A stretch of DNA of 64,000 nucleotides from Candidatus Acidiferrum typicum (GTDB lineage Bacteria; Acidobacteriota; Terriglobia; Acidiferrales; UBA7541), in contig JAOAPV010000004.1 in NCBI GenBank assembly GCA_025463055.1, forward strand, positions 1 to 64,000, read 5' to 3'. A model generated the notes under the pieces. It did no database searches, was not told the origin of the DNA, and saw only the letters and a program-made list of their open reading frames with translations. How positions within the stretch are numbered: the stretch's first letter is position 1; the number at the start of each line of letters is the position of its first letter. A program made the translations under genes and the position numbers. This document shows positions 6,137 through 14,247 of this stretch, one piece after another.

Positions 6137-7342
6137 TTACACGCGCTCCAGGATTACGGCGATTCCTTGGCCGACGCCGATGCACATGGTGCACAGCGCA
6201 TAGCGGCTTTTTGTGCGCTGCAGTTGATACGTGGCAGTGGTCACCAGGCGGGCGCCGCTTGCACCGAGCGGATGGCCGAGCGCGATGGCGCCGCCGTTCG
6301 GGTTCACGTGCCCTGCGTCGTCCGGGATGCCTAGCTCGCGTAAAACGGCGAGAGCTTGGGATGCAAATGCTTCGTTCAATTCGATGACGTTGATTTGCTC
6401 GACAGTGAGATTTGCTTTGGCCAAGACTTTGCGCGTGGCTGGGACCGGCCCGATGCCCATTACGCGCGGTGTTACGCCGGCTGCTGCTGCCGCGACTACG
6501 CGCGCTTTCGGCGTGAGTCCGTGCTTTCGCACTGCGGATTCGGACGCGAGGAGTAACGCGCATGCGCCGTCGTTCACTCCGGAGGCGTTGCCGGCGGTGA
6601 TTGTTCCGTTGGGCTTTACGATTGGTTTCAATTTAGCGAGCGCTTCGAGTGTTGTGTCGGGCCGGGGATGTTCGTCCACGGAGAAGGAAGTTGTCTCACC
6701 CTTTTTGCCTGGGACCGGCACGGCGACGATTTCTTCGCTCATTCGGCAGGCGCGCATGGCGTCCGCGGCGCGCTGCTGGCTGCGCAGCGCGAAGGCGTCC
6801 TGATCTTCCCGCGAGATGTGGTACTCCTCGGCGACGATCTCGCCGGTTTCCGGCATGGAGTCGGTGCCGTACATTTCCTTCATGCGTGGATTGACGAAGC
6901 GCCAGCCAATGGTTGTGTCTTCCAACCGCATGGAACGCGAAAATGCCGAGTCCGCTTTGCCGACTACGAAGGGCGCACGCGACATGTTTTCCACGCCGCC
7001 GGCGATTACCAAATCCACCTCGCCGCTTTTGATGGCGCGGGCGGCGCTGGCCACTGCGTCCATGCTCGAGCCGCAGAGTCGATTCACCGTGGAACCGGGC
7101 ACTTCTTTGGGCAGGCCTGCGAGGAGCAGGGCCATGCGCGCGACGTTGCGATTGTCTTCGCCGGCCTGATTGGCGCAGCCGAAGAGTACGTCATCGAGCG
7201 CGGCCCAATCGACCTTGGCGTTGCGCGAGACGAGCGCGGCGATGGGGATGGCGGCGAGATCGTCGGCGCGGACGGAGGCGAGCGCGCCGCCGTAGCGGCC
7301 TATCGGCGTGCGAATCGCGTCGCAGATGTAGGCGTCGGTCAT
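6137..7342 (-). CDS. pcaF: Thiolase, probable 3-oxoadipyl-CoA thiolase
   Basis: 401 residues, the standard length of a degradative thiolase. Visible motifs are the active-site cysteine in NRLCGSSMDA (about 90), VENMSRAP, the conserved NEAFASQAL segment, the NPNGGAIALGHPLGASGAR signature and the second catalytic cysteine in CIGVGQG near the C-terminus. The start MTDAYICDAIRTPIGRYGG is typical of PcaF/PaaJ-type enzymes, which split 3-oxoadipyl-CoA to succinyl-CoA and acetyl-CoA. The lactonase-like hydrolase immediately downstream supports the beta-ketoadipate assignment. A general acetyl-CoA acetyltransferase role cannot be excluded. Confidence 0.9.
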   Translation of the reverse strand: MTDAYICDAIRTPIGRYGGALASVRADDLAAIPIAALVSRNAKVDWAALDDVLFGCANQAGEDNRNVARMALLLAGLPKEVPGSTVNRLCGSSMDAVASAARAIKSGEVDLVIAGGVENMSRAPFVVGKADSAFSRSMRLEDTTIGWRFVNPRMKEMYGTDSMPETGEIVAEEYHISREDQDAFALRSQQRAADAMRACRMSEEIVAVPVPGKKGETTSFSVDEHPRPDTTLEALAKLKPIVKPNGTITAGNASGVNDGACALLLASESAVRKHGLTPKARVVAAAAAGVTPRVMGIGPVPATRKVLAKANLTVEQINVIELNEAFASQALAVLRELGIPDDAGHVNPNGGAIALGHPLGASGARLVTTATYQLQRTKSRYALCTMCIGVGQGIAVILERV

Positions 7343-7725: not shown

Positions 7726-10700
7726 CTAACAATAGCGCAGTTGATGAAGCTGCGCTTCGCTGTCCGCCCGGCTCGCATGGCGGTCCCAATCTTCGGCGAT
7801 TCGACTCAATAGTGCGCTGGTGCGGGGCCAATTCCGGGTGACCTGCGCCCAATTGCGATATTGATGAGATAGTGCTCTCTCCTGTCTCCCTCCGTCATAC
7901 AGGGCTTTCGTAAAGGAGCCCCGCTGATTGAACCTGGAGATCGCAATGCCCGTTTCGACCTGCTCAGCCGCCAATTCTTCAATCAAATCCCTTATTGGCT
8001 TTGATGGCCACCCGGCGTCTTCGGTATCGGAGGGCGCATAGGCGAGGATTTGCCCAATTTGCTGGTCCGTAATGATGGCGCGATCAGCCTCTTTTGCCAG
8101 CGTTCTCACTGTAGAGATCCAGGATCGCAGGTAACTGAGATCTTCGATGCCTGACGAGAACCCGGGTACCGTTTTGATCGATTGCAGCAACTGGTACGCC
8201 AGTCGCGCACGCAGGCGGCGTTCGTCAGTGATTTCTCCAATCTCGCCTGACGCCGGCGAGAATGCATCACGGATAACGCTTATAAAAAGCTGTGGCGAGG
8301 TGGCAAGTAGACGATTAAGGGCGGTGGGCTCCCCTTGGAGTTCCAGCACCGGAAGATATTGGTACTCGATCGCCGCTAGATCTTCGAGATCGACATCTTC
8401 TCGCTGCTGCAGTGCTTGAATCATGTGAACTACCTCATACTGCACTCGCCGCAACTTCCCGGTCTCCTTGCTTAGTTCCAGAATGAGGCCGCGAAGGACC
8501 TGAATGCACTGAGGTGTTGAAAGAAGATTCTCGCCGTATGCAACCATGTCAAGAATCGCGCTGAACCGCTCGATCTTGGTGTACTTGTCGAAGGCGAACA
8601 CCAAGTCTTCCGGCGAGGATGGCCTGAACGCCCACTTCCGACTCCAATATTCATTATCGATGTGCGGCGAGAGCGAGGCCACAAAATCCCAAGTCTCGCG
8701 CGAGTCAGGCCATCGTAAAAAAAGGTTTGCTGCAGTGCCAGGCTCCATCTTCGCTGCGAACCGTCCAAACCAACTGTCCCAGGCTGGGCCGTGCAAGTTG
8801 TGTGCCGCAGCCGAAAGCGCCATCGCAAAATCTACACTCACGCCGGAATTCGCTTCGCAGGCCAGGGAAATGCCCTCCTGCAGCGTTTCCAAATTAGGAG
8901 AAGTCTCCGCAAGAGCAATCCCGACGAAATGTGGAAGTTTCGCCGTCCTCGCGAGCACTAAGACCGCCGGAAGTCCATTCTCTCGCAGAAGAACACGCAA
9001 AGCCTCGTTGCGAGCCTGGTTTGCATCTCCGATATAGTCCTGTCCTTTTGGCAAACCAGCGTCGGGAGCATAATCATTGAAGAGCCACACGATCCGGCGA
9101 ACAGGGTCGAGTGGTTCAATCTGTTGACAGAGTTCCTCGAAAGGCTTGATTTGATCTGCCTTCAGTGCCCAAGCCGCCTCTTGGAAATTTCGATGTTTCC
9201 GCACAAGAGCGTGTAGCTTAGACCAAATCTGAAACACGGCCTCAGAGCTCACATTCTGCGCCGAGGCTCTAATCGCCAGAATGGCACGCGTGCGACTTTC
9301 CGTGTCTAGCCGCGGCAAGTTATCGATAAGTTCGGTGAGGAGAGAGATGTCACTCCCGGCTAACTCGACGGCAATGTCCGCATACTGCTGAAAGGCATGT
9401 TGCGCGTCGGCTACCGTTGTTGCTTTGCTCTTTGCCTCGCCAAAATCCCTGAGGTGTGGTCTAGCCGTCCCGCTTGAGATATCGTGGCCCGCGGGGAGCA
9501 GGGACATCGCCAGTTGGAGCCCGATTTTAGGACGCTTGCGACAAATCGAGCGGAAGATCGCAATCCTATCGTGGAGCGACGCATACGTATTGGGCCGCCA
9601 AGCGAGGAAAATCTCGCGCAGACTGCTCAGGGGGCGATTCGCGAGGCTGCCTCCCGGATCAAACTCGGCGAGGGTCATTAAGCTAGACGCCGCTCGATAA
9701 AGGTATTCTGGATTCCACGCCATGGTCTCGAGGGCCCACAGTACGTGGGTGTGGGGACTAGATGAGCCCCAGAACGATGCGTCTTTCCTGTCACGGAAGA
9801 TGACCGACGTCCAGTTCTTGCTCTCGCCCTCGAGCACTCGCTCGAGGGCGTGGGCCAAAGGGAATGGTGCGGCCTCCGCAAAGTGAGGAAGCTCCGATTT
9901 CAGGCTCGCAAGGACTCGGATGTCTTCGGCGAGCCCCGGTATGGAGCCGACGACACCGTCAACATACTGTTCCGCCGTGAGATCGATGACTTTAAACCTA
10001 GCCGCTTCGTGCAGACCGGAGATCAGCACGAGTGTCCTTGCTAGTCCACGTCTCAACCATTCCGAGTGGCGAAAATCATCTCCTCTTATAGGGACCGCCG
10101 GCCTCTTATCTTCTGGAATTTCGAGCCTACGATCCGTTTCGGAGAACACTTCGATGCAGGCCTCACTCAGTCGCCGCTGAAATCCACTGTCAATAAGGCA
10201 CCCGAGCACGGTAAATGCGTCCGCGTGGGAGCGAAGTGTCCAGATCGAACCCTCGAGATCAACGGGGGCGTCGGAGAGAGAGGCGAGCCTACGGGCCTCC
10301 GAATCAACATACTCGTACGATGTGTTACTTAGCTTCGCGAGGATAGCTCGATCGTGTTCGTTGGAGGCGTTCCATCCTCCCGCCAAGACAAAGGGAACCA
10401 ACCTAGCATCACCATGCCATTTGGGAGGGGTCGCGATGGCGCTAGCATTTAATCGCGAGAGCACCGTGAGACTCCGACCGCACCTGCCCGCCAGTCTAAA
10501 GGCCTCCCCCTCCTCGATACCCATTGATCTCAGGCCCGCAGCAAAATCGTTGACATTCATGCGATCGAGCGTTTCCGATTCTCCGGCCCGGTCGTCGCTG
10601 CCGAGAGTAAGAATAACCTGACTCGTTCTAGCCAGCGCCGGAGCGACGCGGCTTACCGAAGGCGAAAGGATAAAAACGAAGCGACTTGTGGTCGGCACGG

Positions 10701-11481
10701 TTTGCGCCGCGGCCATCGTGTCAACAATGAGGGTCTTGGCCCGAAGAAAGCGGGAAGTCTCCGATTCGGCACTCATAACTGCCGCAGCGACAAAAGCGGC
10801 CGCCTCCTCCGGCGAATCGGCTTGCCACTTGCTCAGATTTGGGAGTCCAGCGCTCAAAGCTTCACATAAACGCTTTGCGCGATCCGCTCTACCCGTTAGT
10901 AGCAGTTCCTCTTTCAACGTAGGGGCAAAATTCAGCCGGTACTCGTCCCAGAAATCCTGCACTGTTCTGATTCCGGCCGGCGGAATTATCCCGAGCTTTC
11001 GTGCCAGTGGTAGTGCCACAGCTGGATAGTCTGCAAGCCAGAGTTCCAGTGAGGTAGCATCGAGAATCCGTACCTTCAGCCATCCATCCGCCGAGCGATC
11101 TTGCTCCCATTGATCGAGCCCTGTATCCCATTTGCGCGAAGTCACGAAAGTGAACGTCTGACCAGCTCGCTCTGCTGGCGTCGATTTATCTGTTCGCTTT
11201 TTATAGTCACTCTCCGCCTTCGATTTATAATCTTTTCCCGCTCCAAACTCCCAAATCGAACGGCCTTCTGGCACGAAGACATTACCTTCCAGGACTTCGG
11301 CGACTCCGTCGAAGCCATGGGTTTGCGAAGCGTCACCGCTGGGGAAACGATACGACTGCAAGCTCGGGCAGGACGCCCGGATTAGTGAGGCAACGAGGCC
11401 CGGAAGGTCCGCCCTCGCAGCGAGACTGTTGGACCAGGACTCCAAATGTTGTGCCGTTACGATGTTCACTGTCGAATTCAC
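7726..11481 (-). CDS. Large REase-like / STAND-like protein, candidate defence gene
   Basis: 1,251 residues from a GTG start; function not established. Residues 20-165 look like a PD-(D/E)XK-type nuclease domain: DLPGLVASLIRAS, then HGFDG (D58), SIWEFG (E78), a KAESDYKKR lysine block and FTFVTSRKW. Residues about 190-345 resemble the nucleotide-binding and winged-helix part of STAND/AAA proteins (LTGRADRAKRL, RFVFILSPS, LAGRCGRSLTVLSRL). However, no Walker A motif is present: where GxxGxGKT would be expected the protein reads WQADSPEEAAAF. Residues about 400-1251 are alpha-helical, repeat-like and Trp-rich, as in sensor domains of Avs-like proteins. It stands alone, flanked by repeats and a RAYT transposase. 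A defence role is inferred from architecture and context only; a metabolic or regulatory scaffold is possible. Confidence 0.75.
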   Translation of the reverse strand: MNSTVNIVTAQHLESWSNSLAARADLPGLVASLIRASCPSLQSYRFPSGDASQTHGFDGVAEVLEGNVFVPEGRSIWEFGAGKDYKSKAESDYKKRTDKSTPAERAGQTFTFVTSRKWDTGLDQWEQDRSADGWLKVRILDATSLELWLADYPAVALPLARKLGIIPPAGIRTVQDFWDEYRLNFAPTLKEELLLTGRADRAKRLCEALSAGLPNLSKWQADSPEEAAAFVAAAVMSAESETSRFLRAKTLIVDTMAAAQTVPTTSRFVFILSPSVSRVAPALARTSQVILTLGSDDRAGESETLDRMNVNDFAAGLRSMGIEEGEAFRLAGRCGRSLTVLSRLNASAIATPPKWHGDARLVPFVLAGGWNASNEHDRAILAKLSNTSYEYVDSEARRLASLSDAPVDLEGSIWTLRSHADAFTVLGCLIDSGFQRRLSEACIEVFSETDRRLEIPEDKRPAVPIRGDDFRHSEWLRRGLARTLVLISGLHEAARFKVIDLTAEQYVDGVVGSIPGLAEDIRVLASLKSELPHFAEAAPFPLAHALERVLEGESKNWTSVIFRDRKDASFWGSSSPHTHVLWALETMAWNPEYLYRAASSLMTLAEFDPGGSLANRPLSSLREIFLAWRPNTYASLHDRIAIFRSICRKRPKIGLQLAMSLLPAGHDISSGTARPHLRDFGEAKSKATTVADAQHAFQQYADIAVELAGSDISLLTELIDNLPRLDTESRTRAILAIRASAQNVSSEAVFQIWSKLHALVRKHRNFQEAAWALKADQIKPFEELCQQIEPLDPVRRIVWLFNDYAPDAGLPKGQDYIGDANQARNEALRVLLRENGLPAVLVLARTAKLPHFVGIALAETSPNLETLQEGISLACEANSGVSVDFAMALSAAAHNLHGPAWDSWFGRFAAKMEPGTAANLFLRWPDSRETWDFVASLSPHIDNEYWSRKWAFRPSSPEDLVFAFDKYTKIERFSAILDMVAYGENLLSTPQCIQVLRGLILELSKETGKLRRVQYEVVHMIQALQQREDVDLEDLAAIEYQYLPVLELQGEPTALNRLLATSPQLFISVIRDAFSPASGEIGEITDERRLRARLAYQLLQSIKTVPGFSSGIEDLSYLRSWISTVRTLAKEADRAIITDQQIGQILAYAPSDTEDAGWPSKPIRDLIEELAAEQVETGIAISRFNQRGSFTKALYDGGRQERALSHQYRNWAQVTRNWPRTSALLSRIAEDWDRHASRADSEAQLHQLRYC

Positions 11482-11626: not shown

Positions 11627-11812
11627 AGAACGTGTGGTGTGCCACAGGCGATTACGCCGGAGCTTGTGGGGTTGGAGGGAGGGTGGGTTGTGACGTGGTG
11701 TTATTGGATTCGGCGGGCGGAGAGTGCGGAGGAAGTTGCGCGGGTGATCGAGATTATTCAGAAGCGGGAAGGGTTTTCGTTCACGTCCGAGGGCGGGAAA
11801 GCGCCCATCTGA
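11627..11812 (+). pseudogene. Gene remnant, copy 1
   Basis: In frame 2 the sequence reads as protein-like text, including TWCYWIRRAESAEEVARVIE followed by IIQKREGFSF, and ends at a TGA lying inside the first REP-like element. No start codon with a ribosome-binding site was found. A second, frameshifted copy lies about 311 bp downstream. The parent gene was not recognised. This could also be coincidental openness in GC-rich repeat DNA. Confidence 0.35.
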
Positions 11813-12082
11813 AGATGGCCGCTACGTAAGAGCGACAAGCAGCCCCGAAGCTGAAGCCCGCCGCTACGTCCTGCGAAAAGCGGATCCCTCCAAGCGGCGG
11901 CGACTCGCGGTGATTTTTATGTGGAGGACGGGTGTTGCATGAGCTGTGGTGTTTGCAGTTGATTGCGTCGGAGGTTGTGAGGTGGAGGGATGAAGGGTCG
12001 CTGACGTGGTGTTATTGGATTTGGCGGGCGGGAGAGTGCGGAGGAAGTTGCGCGGGCGGTCAGGATTATTCAGGCGCGGGAA
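11691..12082. repeat. Pair of approximately 80-bp direct repeats
   Basis: The segments 11691-11770 and 12002-12082 align nearly base for base (tgacgtggtgttattggatt at the left end, gattattcag near the right end) with a few substitutions and a 1-base insertion in the second. Offset is 311 bp. Each is followed downstream by a REP-like palindrome, so the unit may have duplicated together with it. Confidence 0.8.
11791..11829. repeat. REP-like element, copy 1
   Basis: Shares the core gcgcccatctgaagatggcc followed by gctacgtaa with two more copies at 12184-12222 and 12827-12865. The core contains the perfect hairpin ccatct-ga-agatgg, within a near-perfect gcgcccatct/agatggccgc stem. This is the geometry of REP sequences mobilised by RAYT transposases. 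Confidence 0.8.
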
Positions 12083-12090
12083 TTGGAGTG
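11932..12090 (+). pseudogene. Gene remnant, copy 2 (frameshifted)
   Basis: This stretch reads LHELWCLQLIASEVVRW and then LTWCYWI. One extra G near 12032, relative to copy 1, shifts the frame. After the shift AEEVARAVRIIQARE matches AEEVARVIEIIQKRE of copy 1. This pattern indicates a duplicated and decaying coding segment. Confidence 0.35.
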
Positions 12091-12170
12091 GCGGCGGTCT
12101 GGGGGAGGATCGCGCGATTGTTGGGAGGGTGGCGCGGGGGGGATTTTTTCTTTACGGAGAGGGATTTTTC

Positions 12171-12222
12171 CGTTCCCGCCATAGGCGGGAACGCGCCCAT
12201 CTGAAGGATGGCCGCTACGTAA
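12171..12222. repeat. REP-like element, copy 2, with extra palindrome
   Basis: The REP core at 12184-12222 has one extra G (gaaggatgg). It is preceded by a perfect inverted repeat, cgttcccgcc-ata-ggcgggaacg, at 12171-12193. The stop codon of the RAYT gene lies inside this element (12215-12217), so the transposase frame reads into the repeat. Confidence 0.85.
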
Positions 12223-12739
12223 CCCCTTGGCTACGCCACGGGGGTGACCACGGCTCGGTTGGTGGAGTTGAATTTGGTCTTGCGCCTGTTAGGGAGCCGG
12301 ACCACGGATATTCGTTTGCGGTGGCGCATAGGTTGGCCCGGACGGGATTTAGCCAGATGTACCAGGCTACTTGGTCGGTTGGGTCGGTGGAGCGGAGGGC
12401 GTGGTCGTAGGATTTTTTCTGCCAGAGTTGCTGGGCGGTTTTTTGTTTGTAGGCGAAGCCCGTTTTTCGTTTTAGGGATTTTAGGAATTGGAGCAGGTTG
12501 GTGGTTGGCGTTTGGCTTTGCGTGAGAAGGTGCACGTGATTGGGCATTATGCAATAGGCGTGAATTGCGACGGTGTGGGTGAGGGATTCTGAGCGCAGGT
12601 TGTCTACGAACCATTTCGCGCGGGTTGGGTTGGCGAAGATTTTTTCTCGGTGTTCGCAGCAGAACGTCACGAAAAACCAGGCGGTGCCTACGTAGCGATT
12701 GAGGGGTAGGCGGATGGATTTGTGGTGGAAGGTTTTCAT
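12215..12739 (-). CDS. REP-associated tyrosine transposase (RAYT, IS200/IS605-like)
   Basis: 174-residue Y1-type transposase of the RAYT group, which processes REP palindromes as single-stranded DNA. Visible motifs are GTAWFFVTFCCEHR (about 18-31), the metal-binding HUH motif MPNHVHLL (H68 and H70), LWQKKSYDHALR (about 105-116) and the helix YIWLNPVRANL, whose Y127 is the likely nucleophile. The frame is open to 12982, but upstream sequence crosses a REP element and the ABC permease gene, so the ATG at 12739 (MKTFHHKSIRLPLNRYVG) is used. REP-like copies lie on both sides. The last codons and the stop come from REP copy 2, so the native C-terminus may have been altered. Confidence 0.88.
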   Translation of the reverse strand: MKTFHHKSIRLPLNRYVGTAWFFVTFCCEHREKIFANPTRAKWFVDNLRSESLTHTVAIHAYCIMPNHVHLLTQSQTPTTNLLQFLKSLKRKTGFAYKQKTAQQLWQKKSYDHALRSTDPTDQVAWYIWLNPVRANLCATANEYPWSGSLTGARPNSTPPTEPWSPPWRSQGVT

Positions 12740-12826
12740 GTGTGGTGTTGGTGGGATTTTAATGCGGATTGGGGAAAAGCCGGAGTAGGAGTTGGGGACG
12801 GTCGGAGTTTGTTCCCAGCCCGCCAC

Positions 12827-12865
12827 GGGCGGGGAAGCGCCCATCTGAAGATGGCCGCTACGTAA
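12827..12865. repeat. REP-like element, copy 3
   Basis: Same core as the other two copies, with the perfect ccatct-ga-agatgg hairpin at 12842-12855 and a preceding ccgcc-acg-ggcgg palindrome around 12820-12832. It ends 2 bp before the stop codon of the ABC permease gene (12868-12870). Confidence 0.82.
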
Positions 12866-12867
12866 CC

Positions 12868-14247
12868 CTACTCGTAACGTAACGCTTCGACTGGGTTTAG
12901 TTTTGCGGCGCGGGAGGCTGGGTATAGGCCGGCGGCTAGGCTTACTGCTACTGCGAAGAGGATTGCGCTGGCGGCTAGCCACCAGGGGACGTAGGAGATT
13001 TTTACGCCGGGGAGGTCTTGGCGGCGGAGATAGATTGTTGTGCCGTAGGTTAGGGCTTGGCCTATTAGCCAGCCTAGAGTTACTCCGAAGAGGCCGCCGA
13101 CTACTCCCATTGCGCCGGCTTCGGCGAAGAACAGGCTGCGGACGTCGCCGTCCGTTGCGCCTAGCGCTTTTAGTACGCCGATTTCGCGGCGGCGCTCTAG
13201 GATGGCCATCACTAGCGTGTTGATTATGCCTAGCGAGGCGACCGTTAACGCTAGGCTGCCGAACAATCCTAGAAACAAATCAAACACGGTGAAGACTAGG
13301 CGGAGGCTGCGGGCGGCGTCTAGGAGGGAGAAGGCGTTGAAGCCTTGTTTTTTTATGGCGTCTTCTACTTTGAGGACGTCTTTGGGATTTTTTACGCGGA
13401 TGGTTAGCGCGGCGTAGGTGGGCTTGCCGTTGCCGCCGCCGCGGACGAAGTCTTGGACGTCGTTGGCTTGCGCGGCGTGAAGCTGCTCGGCTACGCGGAT
13501 GGGAAGGAAGACGCGGCCGCCGCCGAATCCGCCGATGCCGGCGGAGGGGTCGGACTCGATTACGCCGACGATGCGAAGTTTTTTCTCGCGAGAGACGATG
13601 GAGATGCCGCCGGACATCATGGCGTCGAGCTGGGCGTCGATATCTTTTTCTTTGGCGATTTCGTCGGAGGAGAGCGCGCGGCGCTCGGCGTAACGCAGAG
13701 TGATTTCTTTGCCGACGAGGGATGCGGGCTGAGGCGAGAGGTCCTTGGCGAAATCCTGTTGGAGGATGGCTTCTTCGGCGGTGGAGGAGGAAAAATATTT
13801 TCCGGTGATGCCGTCGAAGGCGCTGGCGGAGCGCGAGGATTCGGGGACGCCGAGGACGTTGGTGGAATAGGTGTTGTTGTCGAAGCGGACGTCGGTGAAG
13901 AAGCGGATTTGCGGGTAGACGTCGACTACGTTGGGTAAGGCGGCGAATTTTTGGCGGGCGTCTTCGTCCAGGGGCTTGGGATTTTCTTTGGGCGTGGTGG
14001 CGGACGATTTGCGCGGGCCGTCGCTGCCGGGGCCGCGAAACTCTCGACGCGAGGTGACGAAGACGGCGTCGAATAGGCCGGACTTGGTTAGGCGATCGGA
14101 GGCTAGCGTTTGCAGGCCTACGCCTAGGGAGAGCATGGCTACTAGCGAGGCGACTCCGACGGCTACACCGAGCGTGGTGAGGGAATTGCGCAGGATGGCT
14201 TCGCGGAGATTGCGGGCGGCTAGCTCGCTTAGGTCGCGTAGCTTCAT
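12868..14247 (-). CDS. ABC transporter permease, MacB/FtsX family
   Basis: 459 residues with the MacB layout: TM1 at about 22-45 (TTLGVAVGVASLVAMLSLG), a large periplasmic MacB_PCD domain of about 270 residues, then three C-terminal TM segments (from about 320, 365 and 425). The FtsX signature LERRREIGVLKALGATDGDV precedes TM3 and the protein ends in SRAAKLNPVEALRYE, the usual family terminus. The ATPase gene overlaps by 4 bp upstream, forming a two-gene exporter. No periplasmic adaptor or outer-membrane partner gene is adjacent, so the substrate (lipoprotein, peptide or drug) is not determined. Confidence 0.92.
   Translation of the reverse strand: MKLRDLSELAARNLREAILRNSLTTLGVAVGVASLVAMLSLGVGLQTLASDRLTKSGLFDAVFVTSRREFRGPGSDGPRKSSATTPKENPKPLDEDARQKFAALPNVVDVYPQIRFFTDVRFDNNTYSTNVLGVPESSRSASAFDGITGKYFSSSTAEEAILQQDFAKDLSPQPASLVGKEITLRYAERRALSSDEIAKEKDIDAQLDAMMSGGISIVSREKKLRIVGVIESDPSAGIGGFGGGRVFLPIRVAEQLHAAQANDVQDFVRGGGNGKPTYAALTIRVKNPKDVLKVEDAIKKQGFNAFSLLDAARSLRLVFTVFDLFLGLFGSLALTVASLGIINTLVMAILERRREIGVLKALGATDGDVRSLFFAEAGAMGVVGGLFGVTLGWLIGQALTYGTTIYLRRQDLPGVKISYVPWWLAASAILFAVAVSLAAGLYPASRAAKLNPVEALRYE

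Follow-up and report, generated by a model that had tools for sequence, protein, structure and literature searches.

In a 64,000-nucleotide stretch of the Candidatus Acidiferrum typicum genome (contig JAOAPV010000004.1, positions 1 to 64,000; hereafter the window), a gene on the minus strand at positions 7726-11481 encodes a protein of 1,251 residues, here called P0001. We think that P0001 is probably a single-gene defense receptor against phages or mobile DNA whose nucleoside triphosphatase (NTPase) core is dead, a homologue of PD-Lambda-4_A with the build of an Avs protein and a core of the inactive STAND (iSTAND) kind. The protein combines a predicted head-core-tail layout and homology to an antiphage protein with loss of the P-loop while nuclease residues are kept, and it belongs to a family found in accessory and often defense-associated settings.

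The preliminary description of this DNA had noted a lone 1,251-residue protein, and the open reading frame (ORF) is indeed intact, with 1,251 codons from a GTG start within an open frame of 1,258; the strand, which that description had not given, is the minus strand. The 5.33-Mb genome from which the window comes contains a single match to P0001. Searches of Pfam and NCBIfam with P0001 gave no match above cut-off, and a sequence search of the PDB gave nothing useful. PADLOC returned one weak collinear match, to PD-Lambda-4_A (E 0.0022, 13.7 bits, residues 578-716 on 594-734 of 1,283, 141 positions), and no Avs match at E<=1. In PHROGs v4, P0001 matches phrog_18693 over its full length (E 7.8e-238, 7-1249 on 3-1255 of 1,258), a family that is also matched by the relatives L025, L005, and L030 and by the tail of L108. 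The P0001 family is thus already catalogued as phrog_18693, listed as "unknown function" with no domain reading attached. We rejected a chance or decayed ORF because there are full-length relatives (on plasmids, with E values down to 1e-136), because the PHROG match is full length, and because the ratio of nonsynonymous to synonymous substitution rates (dN/dS) is 0.19 over residues 601-1249 for the one pair compared, P0001 and the copy in G035, a genome of the same genus.

An alignment-based pattern scan of genome contigs recovered 425 relatives among 438 pattern matches, with 11 in viral contigs; a single-sequence scan of the genome contigs found no relative. The relatives analyzed here are the best 80 of the 425 together with other sets. 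From 112 relative ORFs, 91 were counted as full length and 21 were excluded, namely the tail-only forms L019, L020, and L108-L115, the GHKL fusion L002, the split or short ORFs L018, L041, L042, L046, L058, L064, and L101, and L085, L098, and L103, whose matches start from residue 26, past the limit of residue 15 set for a full-length ORF. Removal of near-copies reduced the 91 to 77 full-length members, and 63 of these plus P0001 make up the 64-sequence alignment used below. The best 80 of the 425 come from Acidobacteriota, Pseudomonadota, Nitrospirota, Actinomycetota, Bacillota, Bacteroidota, Planctomycetota, Chloroflexota, Chlamydiota, Verrucomicrobiota, Myxococcota, and others, and include the archaeon Methanosaeta; the set used for the tree spans 15 phylum-level groups. 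Of 101 related genomes searched by tblastn, 4 gave a match, the window's own among them, and a profile of the tail matches 12 of 297 genomes of the phylum (own genome and fragments counted). Given this spread over phyla and these low numbers of matched genomes, the family is widespread but sparse. By tblastn we also matched one phage record (residues 4-621) and 23 plasmid records, 11 of which are typed as conjugative; 18 of the 23 have one place covering at least 80% of P0001, at 24-31% identity.

An AlphaFold (AF2) model of residues 1-420 is confident, with a predicted local distance difference test score (pLDDT) of 94.1 and a predicted template-modeling score of 0.90, and it shows secondary-structure elements in an order typical of PD-(D/E)XK enzymes, then an alpha/beta core, and then a winged-helix-like part. 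The head, residues 1-165 (10987-11481, minus strand, as are all features of the gene given below), is predicted to have a restriction-endonuclease-like fold. VIA-align places the FokI cleavage domain (399-560) on residues 2-154 with a Z of 8.2 over 139 residues and a root-mean-square deviation (rmsd) of 4.3, and EcoT38I on residues 5-165 with a Z of 8.1, so that the nuclease-type fold suspected earlier for residues 1-170 did find matches. The residues that had been pointed out by eye, D58 in GFDG, E78 in WEFG, and a block of lysines, are at those places and are conserved in the alignment: D58 (codon 11308-11310, GWDG in the consensus) in 64 of 64 sequences, as is G59, E78 (WExG, codon 11248-11250) in 63, K88 (codon 11218-11220) in 62, and R96 in 63. 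The FokI match and the retention of D58 and E78 together give the fold and the metal-binding acids by which PD-(D/E)XK proteins are recognized. Residue 80, the canonical place of the ExK lysine, is Gly in 49 sequences, P0001 among them, Ser in 12, Thr in 2, and Lys in 1. For other families, PMC1913061 describes migration of the PD-(D/E)XK lysine to the helix after the third strand, and K88 lies in the helix that follows strand 73-80, which makes it a candidate for a migrated catalytic lysine.

The core, residues 166-345 (10447-10986), has a predicted AAA+/STAND fold that aligns by VIA-align with CED-4 (Z 9.4) and, on residues 169-348, with the AAA+ domains of ClpC and RFC. Residues 346-420 (10222-10446) form a segment that is probably winged-helix-like, judged by the secondary structure of the AF2 model and by CED-4 and NRC4 alignments that reach residue 420. 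The preliminary description had called the core STAND-like and P-loop-less, and this holds both for P0001 and across the sampled family. A search of the 112 relative ORFs for GxxxxGK[ST] gave two matches, both at about residue 80 in the head, and no P-loop occurs in residues 170-350 of any of the 91 full-length relatives. None was found in fifteen further loci, three of which are re-fetched genomes already counted and several of which are incomplete, and a search of 274 genomes matched 4, one of them the starting genome itself, and found no P-loop intermediate. We therefore rejected a decay of the P-loop confined to the P0001 copy. At the place where PD-Lambda-4_A has GxSGxGKT, P0001 has ADSPEE (residues 221-226, 10804-10821), and the family has mostly A-[DE]-[ST]-x-[ED]-[ED], with residue 226 being E in 58 sequences and D in 6; after the Walker-B-like strand 269-272, acidic residues occur at each of positions 273-276 in at most 28 of the 64. 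The P-loop place thus holds a conserved replacement and not the product of random decay. A STAND/AAA+ fold with lost Walker motifs is what defines an iSTAND module and is what the predicted P0001 core shows; the Walker A motif that marks Avs proteins with ATP-driven assembly is absent.

The tail, residues 421-1251 (7729-10221), is a predicted helical solenoid and the presumed sensor. In a confident AF2 model of residues 345-1251 (pLDDT 91.5), it is helical apart from a few short strands, which bears out the earlier view that the last 850 residues are helical; its PDB matches are HEAT- or karyopherin-like, that is, helical solenoids in general, and carry no specific meaning. The most conserved 60 residues of the whole protein, 571-630 (9592-9771), lie in this tail and overlap the PADLOC match to PD-Lambda-4_A at 578-716.

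PD-Lambda-4_A (PADLOC PDLC03991, from PD-lambda-4, an E. coli antiphage system of Vassallo et al. 2022) resembles P0001 in length and in its order of head, core, and tail. An hhalign comparison of the P0001 family with it covers 1,072 columns (7-1202 on 8-1214) at a probability of 98.7 and an E value of 3.6e-16; head plus core alone gives 88.9 and 2.4e-6, and the tail alone gives 95.0 and 3.9e-8. The controls, which were single sequences and not alignments, gave probabilities of 0.2 for an AAA/TPR protein and 0.1 for a histidine kinase. The best pairwise BLAST values between members are 3.8e-8 for the tail and 1.6e-6 for the head, and the PADLOC model matches 9 of 18 P0001-family members weakly (best 4.4e-5). 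Run against 119 genomes of one genus, that of the Pseudomonas locus L040, the model gave six matches, five of them strong PD-Lambda-4_A proteins of 1,245-1,292 residues scoring 707-1,235 bits and the sixth the weak relative at L040; in 14 control genomes it gave no match at E<=0.001. P0001, at 13.7 bits, falls far below the strong members and does not match the model over its full length. All five strong proteins keep G[LM]SG[LV]GKT and a QVK motif, and from its D...QVK motif we read the PD-Lambda-4_A head as a putative PD-(D/E)XK domain. The P0001 family, in contrast, has no P-loop and has ExG with a conserved lysine in the next helix. For every one of their candidate systems, Vassallo et al. 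confirmed a drop in plating by the phage that had served to select it (PMC9519451), and a review, where it lists these systems, counts PD-lambda-4 among them with a P-loop NTPase (PMC10952713). Taking the end-to-end homology and this antiphage record together, P0001 therefore belongs to a sister family, lacking the P-loop, of a protein whose system has proven antiphage activity.

The order of nuclease head, STAND core, and helical sensor tail is shared with Avs4/AVAST in the predicted models and by Foldseek, in agreement with the Avs-type architecture proposed in the preliminary description. In a Foldseek search of the PDB with residues 1-420, the sole match at E<=0.001 was Avs4 with phage portal (8dgf_B, 2.7e-4), followed by CED-4 at 2.4e-3. 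A dead core is not unprecedented, since iSTAND modules in multi-gene systems and LypA are known. The iSTAND, iSTAND2, and BrxB modules of conflict systems, as described in parts of PMC8195603, PMC7159879, and PMC12839542, have a STAND fold without Walker motifs, like the P0001 core, but they are parts of multi-gene systems (MoxR-vWA, GT4/HEPN, BREX), whereas the P0001 core forms part of a single protein, with the nuclease before it and the sensor after it, at the position that an active STAND domain would occupy. LypA, from a CARD-NLR-like system of Caulobacter, has an ATPase domain that lacks conserved Walker A and B residues (PMC13236601); it carries a peptidase and belongs to a system of three proteins, of which LypB keeps its P-loop intact, whereas P0001 is a putative single-gene nuclease. 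What sets P0001 apart from these precedents is that a dead core stands in for the active one within a single-protein nuclease receptor. A literature search by keyword found no description of a P-loop-less single-gene family of the Avs or PD-Lambda-4 type, and a search for the accessions of six relatives found no paper. The earlier suggestion of an undescribed system needs correcting in that kin do exist, in the homologue PD-Lambda-4_A, in phrog_18693, and in the iSTAND precedents.

Mechanistically, we propose that in the resting state the PD-(D/E)XK head would be kept apart or blocked by the helical tail together with the iSTAND/winged-helix core. The tail would bind a component of the invader, as in Avs proteins, whose sensor binds phage portal or terminase, and the rearrangement would be relayed through the dead core by protein contacts and not by nucleotide exchange, because the P-loop is lost in every full-length member sampled. 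The heads would then pair or assemble and cut DNA, and either the population would be protected or the invader destroyed. Sensing by the tail, the defense activity, and the independence from ATP are proposed by analogy with Avs and PD-Lambda-4.

Two kinds of variation within the family bear on this proposal. An N-terminal extension of at least 70 residues is present in 39 of the 77 non-redundant full-length members and missing from 38 as well as from P0001; HTH_3 matches 33 of these extensions and HTH_17 matches 4, and the added helix-turn-helix (HTH), found in about half of the family, may serve autorepression or DNA targeting. Eight of the 23 plasmid matches are annotated as transcription regulators, a reading that we rejected for P0001 because the label derives from the N-terminal HTH that P0001 lacks. 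In addition, seven tail-only relatives without a STAND core (L020, L108, L111-L113, L019, and L114) nest within the P-loop-less family, in a ten-row clade with the full-length L008, L091, and L102 at support 100, in a tree that was made with FastTree only, with the tail-only rows included, and whose output flags joined long branches. In five of the seven, the tail follows a head of some 275 residues in which TDDL and GQ-x-K are invariant, and the core-less branch thus seems mostly to carry another nuclease-like head while keeping the tail. The head of L108-L113 and L020 may be Cap4-like, which searches left unconfirmed: Pfam gave nothing for L020 at E<=1, PADLOC gave DUF626_VIII only (0.0022), and the PDB gave nothing useful. 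The branch comes from an Escherichia coli gene adjoining a prophage, from other viral contigs, and from Shewanella and Buttiauxella plasmids.

The E. coli gene (NZ_AP027748.1, L116:12007-15549) encodes a 1,180-residue "hypothetical protein," WP_000182525.1, in which the TDDL/GQxK nuclease-like head is joined directly to a P0001-type tail, and it adjoins phage tail-fiber, lysis, and antitermination genes. Among 5,426 E. coli genomes, 8 have close copies, of which 7 are nearly complete; they are annotated as "hypothetical protein." In L019 (7875-10640) and L114, the tail is preceded by only a lead of about 40 residues with GHN...DL, in L019 after a 106-residue ORF; this form is possibly a two-gene one with a separate effector.

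It is conceivable, and we put it forward tentatively as somewhat short of an even chance, that these are NLR-like receptors without a nucleotide switch, in which the tail alone is the sensor that gates any attached nuclease and in which the P-loop was lost first and then, in the nested branch, the core. The usual view of STAND and NLR receptors, in organisms from bacteria to plants, is that they are switches driven by nucleotide. Were this proposal true, ATP-driven assembly would not be needed for pattern recognition of the NLR-like kind, and a large P-loop-less single-gene family beside a P-loop-bearing antiphage sister offers a natural experiment on the need of the switch for ATP. It also attaches a testable mechanism to a widespread family that is unnamed in Pfam, NCBIfam, and PADLOC.

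The genomic settings of the relatives are variable. They occur on plasmids, near prophages, and beside defense genes, and the constant non-defense context that would have spoken against the preliminary description was not found. We inspected 19 plasmid loci, 16 of them annotated, and in 9 of the 16 a gene of the Abi, AbiE, SIR2, Shedu-domain, restriction-modification (R-M), restriction, or PDDEXK nuclease kind lies no more than 8 kb away. Among the nearest neighbors in genome and viral contigs, AbiEi was matched by 11 of 109 at E<=1e-10, and among the 79 far genes (more than 6 kb away) there was no AbiEi in the 25 families listed of 96, although the Gabija, Hachiman, DISARM, and type I R-M models had one match apiece. 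Fisher's test of near versus far AbiEi gives p 0.002 if there is no far AbiEi and 0.012 if there is one; the control is a coarse one, since both sets of genes were taken from the same loci and called by a simple ORF finder. When 401 neighbor proteins, three genes on each side, were clustered by single-linkage BLAST, no family occurred in more than 12 of 76 loci; the two most frequent, in 12 and 10 loci, we identify as AbiEii and AbiEi by inspection and by comparison with the annotated loci L010, L022, and L023. We therefore rejected a fixed partner gene within this neighborhood. The suffix of PD-Lambda-4_A implies a B component, the model of which was not searched, and the clustering shows no neighbor family above 12 of 76 loci. 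For the iSTAND partners MoxR-vWA, GT4/HEPN, and BREX, none of which was searched by name, it likewise showed no constant neighbor within three genes on each side. A family of about 213 residues recurs on the same strand immediately upstream of the family gene in 6 of 76 loci.

Several results weigh against a defense receptor with a dead core. Common arrangements reach Z values close to the 8-9 given by VIA-align, and such matches are suggestive, not decisive. In the head, with Gly80 in place of the canonical ExK lysine, catalysis depends on the assumed migration to Lys88. Globally, the match to Avs4 is weak, with a query TM of 0.27 and an rmsd of 15.2, and the 50 VIA rows do not include this protein, though it stands first in Foldseek. 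The PD-Lambda-4_A model at E<=1 also matches 2 of the 14 control genomes, and P0001's own match to it is weak (E 0.0022). Avs5, where tested, needs Walker A and nucleotide binding, and its Walker A mutants are dead (PMC12931631); the P0001 family lacks this motif. The sample examined for the P-loop comprised the best 80 of 425 relatives plus the other sets, and more distant members could differ. As to setting, no recognizable defense gene surrounds the window copy, and the context counts are post hoc with no outside control. We found no phage assay of any P-loop-less member.

Three other explanations have to be set against a defense receptor that works without nucleotide. The core could be a nucleic-acid receptor for foreign or modified DNA in a type-IV-like restriction enzyme, with the head cutting directly and the tail as scaffold. 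Inactive STAND domains have been proposed as nucleic-acid receptors in a part of PMC8195603, BrxB is an iSTAND protein according to passages of PMC12839542, and L025, the closest full-length relative (54%), is adjoined by a DNA methylase gene on one side, with a TrbC/VirB2 pilin gene on the other. However, it is the tail and not the core that survives when the core is lost, and the most conserved stretch, 571-630, lies in the tail, and we regard this explanation as unlikely. Alternatively, the core could still bind nucleotide in an unusual way, and P0001 would be an ordinary Avs-like ATPase with eroded motifs and a divergent ATP switch, as the retained AAA+ fold would allow. An acidic residue at 226 in all 64 sequences with no GK[ST], the want of any position in 273-276 that is acidic in more than 28 of 64, and a nested branch that does without the core make this distinctly unlikely.

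Finally, the family could serve in the maintenance of plasmids or mobile elements, or act against plasmids and not against phages, the HTH-bearing members being autoregulated addiction or exclusion proteins. The well-covered matches on 18 of the 23 plasmid records, the 11 conjugative ones, the predominance of HTH_3 and HTH_17 among the extensions, and the AbiE toxin-antitoxin as a neighbor fit such a role. We consider it quite improbable, since half of the members, as well as P0001, have no extension, and since family genes also lie on records described as chromosomes (e.g., L028, L040, and L050).

The local setting of the P0001 gene concerns its mobility. It is flanked on the left by a thiolase gene (6137-7342, minus strand; PF00108, 7.8e-75) and on the right by an ABC permease gene of the LolE/FtsX type (12868-14247, minus strand), the latter assigned by library matches and congener comparison. 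Of 35 other genomes of the genus, both flank queries were met on one contig in two, G028 and G013, and in the rest they lie on different contigs or are missing. In these two genomes, the thiolase is 73.7 and 74.1% identical in nucleotides, and the gap between thiolase and permease, of about 1.4 and 4.1 kb, holds other DNA and no P0001 gene. The tail of the G035 copy is 82% identical to P0001 in DNA and 80% in protein, whereas identity between the two permeases is 61%. The site without the gene in two congeners, the higher identity of the G035 tail than of the permease, and the plasmid and prophage settings of relatives speak for P0001 as a mobile accessory gene. With PADLOC, the nine other ORFs in the first 21 kb of the window gave generic ABC-type matches (the best LolD to mad3, 3.6e-31) and otherwise weak matches only.

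The G035 copy is itself a variant. Its ORF (L126:7470-9971) has a GHKL (HATPase_c_3) N terminus in frame with a region corresponding to P0001 residues ~598-1251 at 82% nucleotide identity, and it is thus a product of in-frame fusion or recombination that lacks the head, the core, and the beginning of the tail. In its vicinity are an AAA/TPR protein and a pair consisting of an XRE-HTH protein and a DUF6036 nucleotidyltransferase.

In the window, the thiolase gene overlaps a 411-residue ORF of doubtful start, whose C-terminal part (163-410) carries a PcaD-like hydrolase. Upstream of the P0001 gene is a Y1 transposase gene of the type associated with repetitive extragenic palindromic (REP) sequences (12215-12982, minus strand; NF047646, 7.6e-28; PF01797). 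Between the two genes, at 11645-12206, are direct repeats of 76, 52, and 23 nucleotides, about 310-390 bp apart, and these repeats and the transposase are perhaps a REP/RAYT unit beside the P0001 gene.

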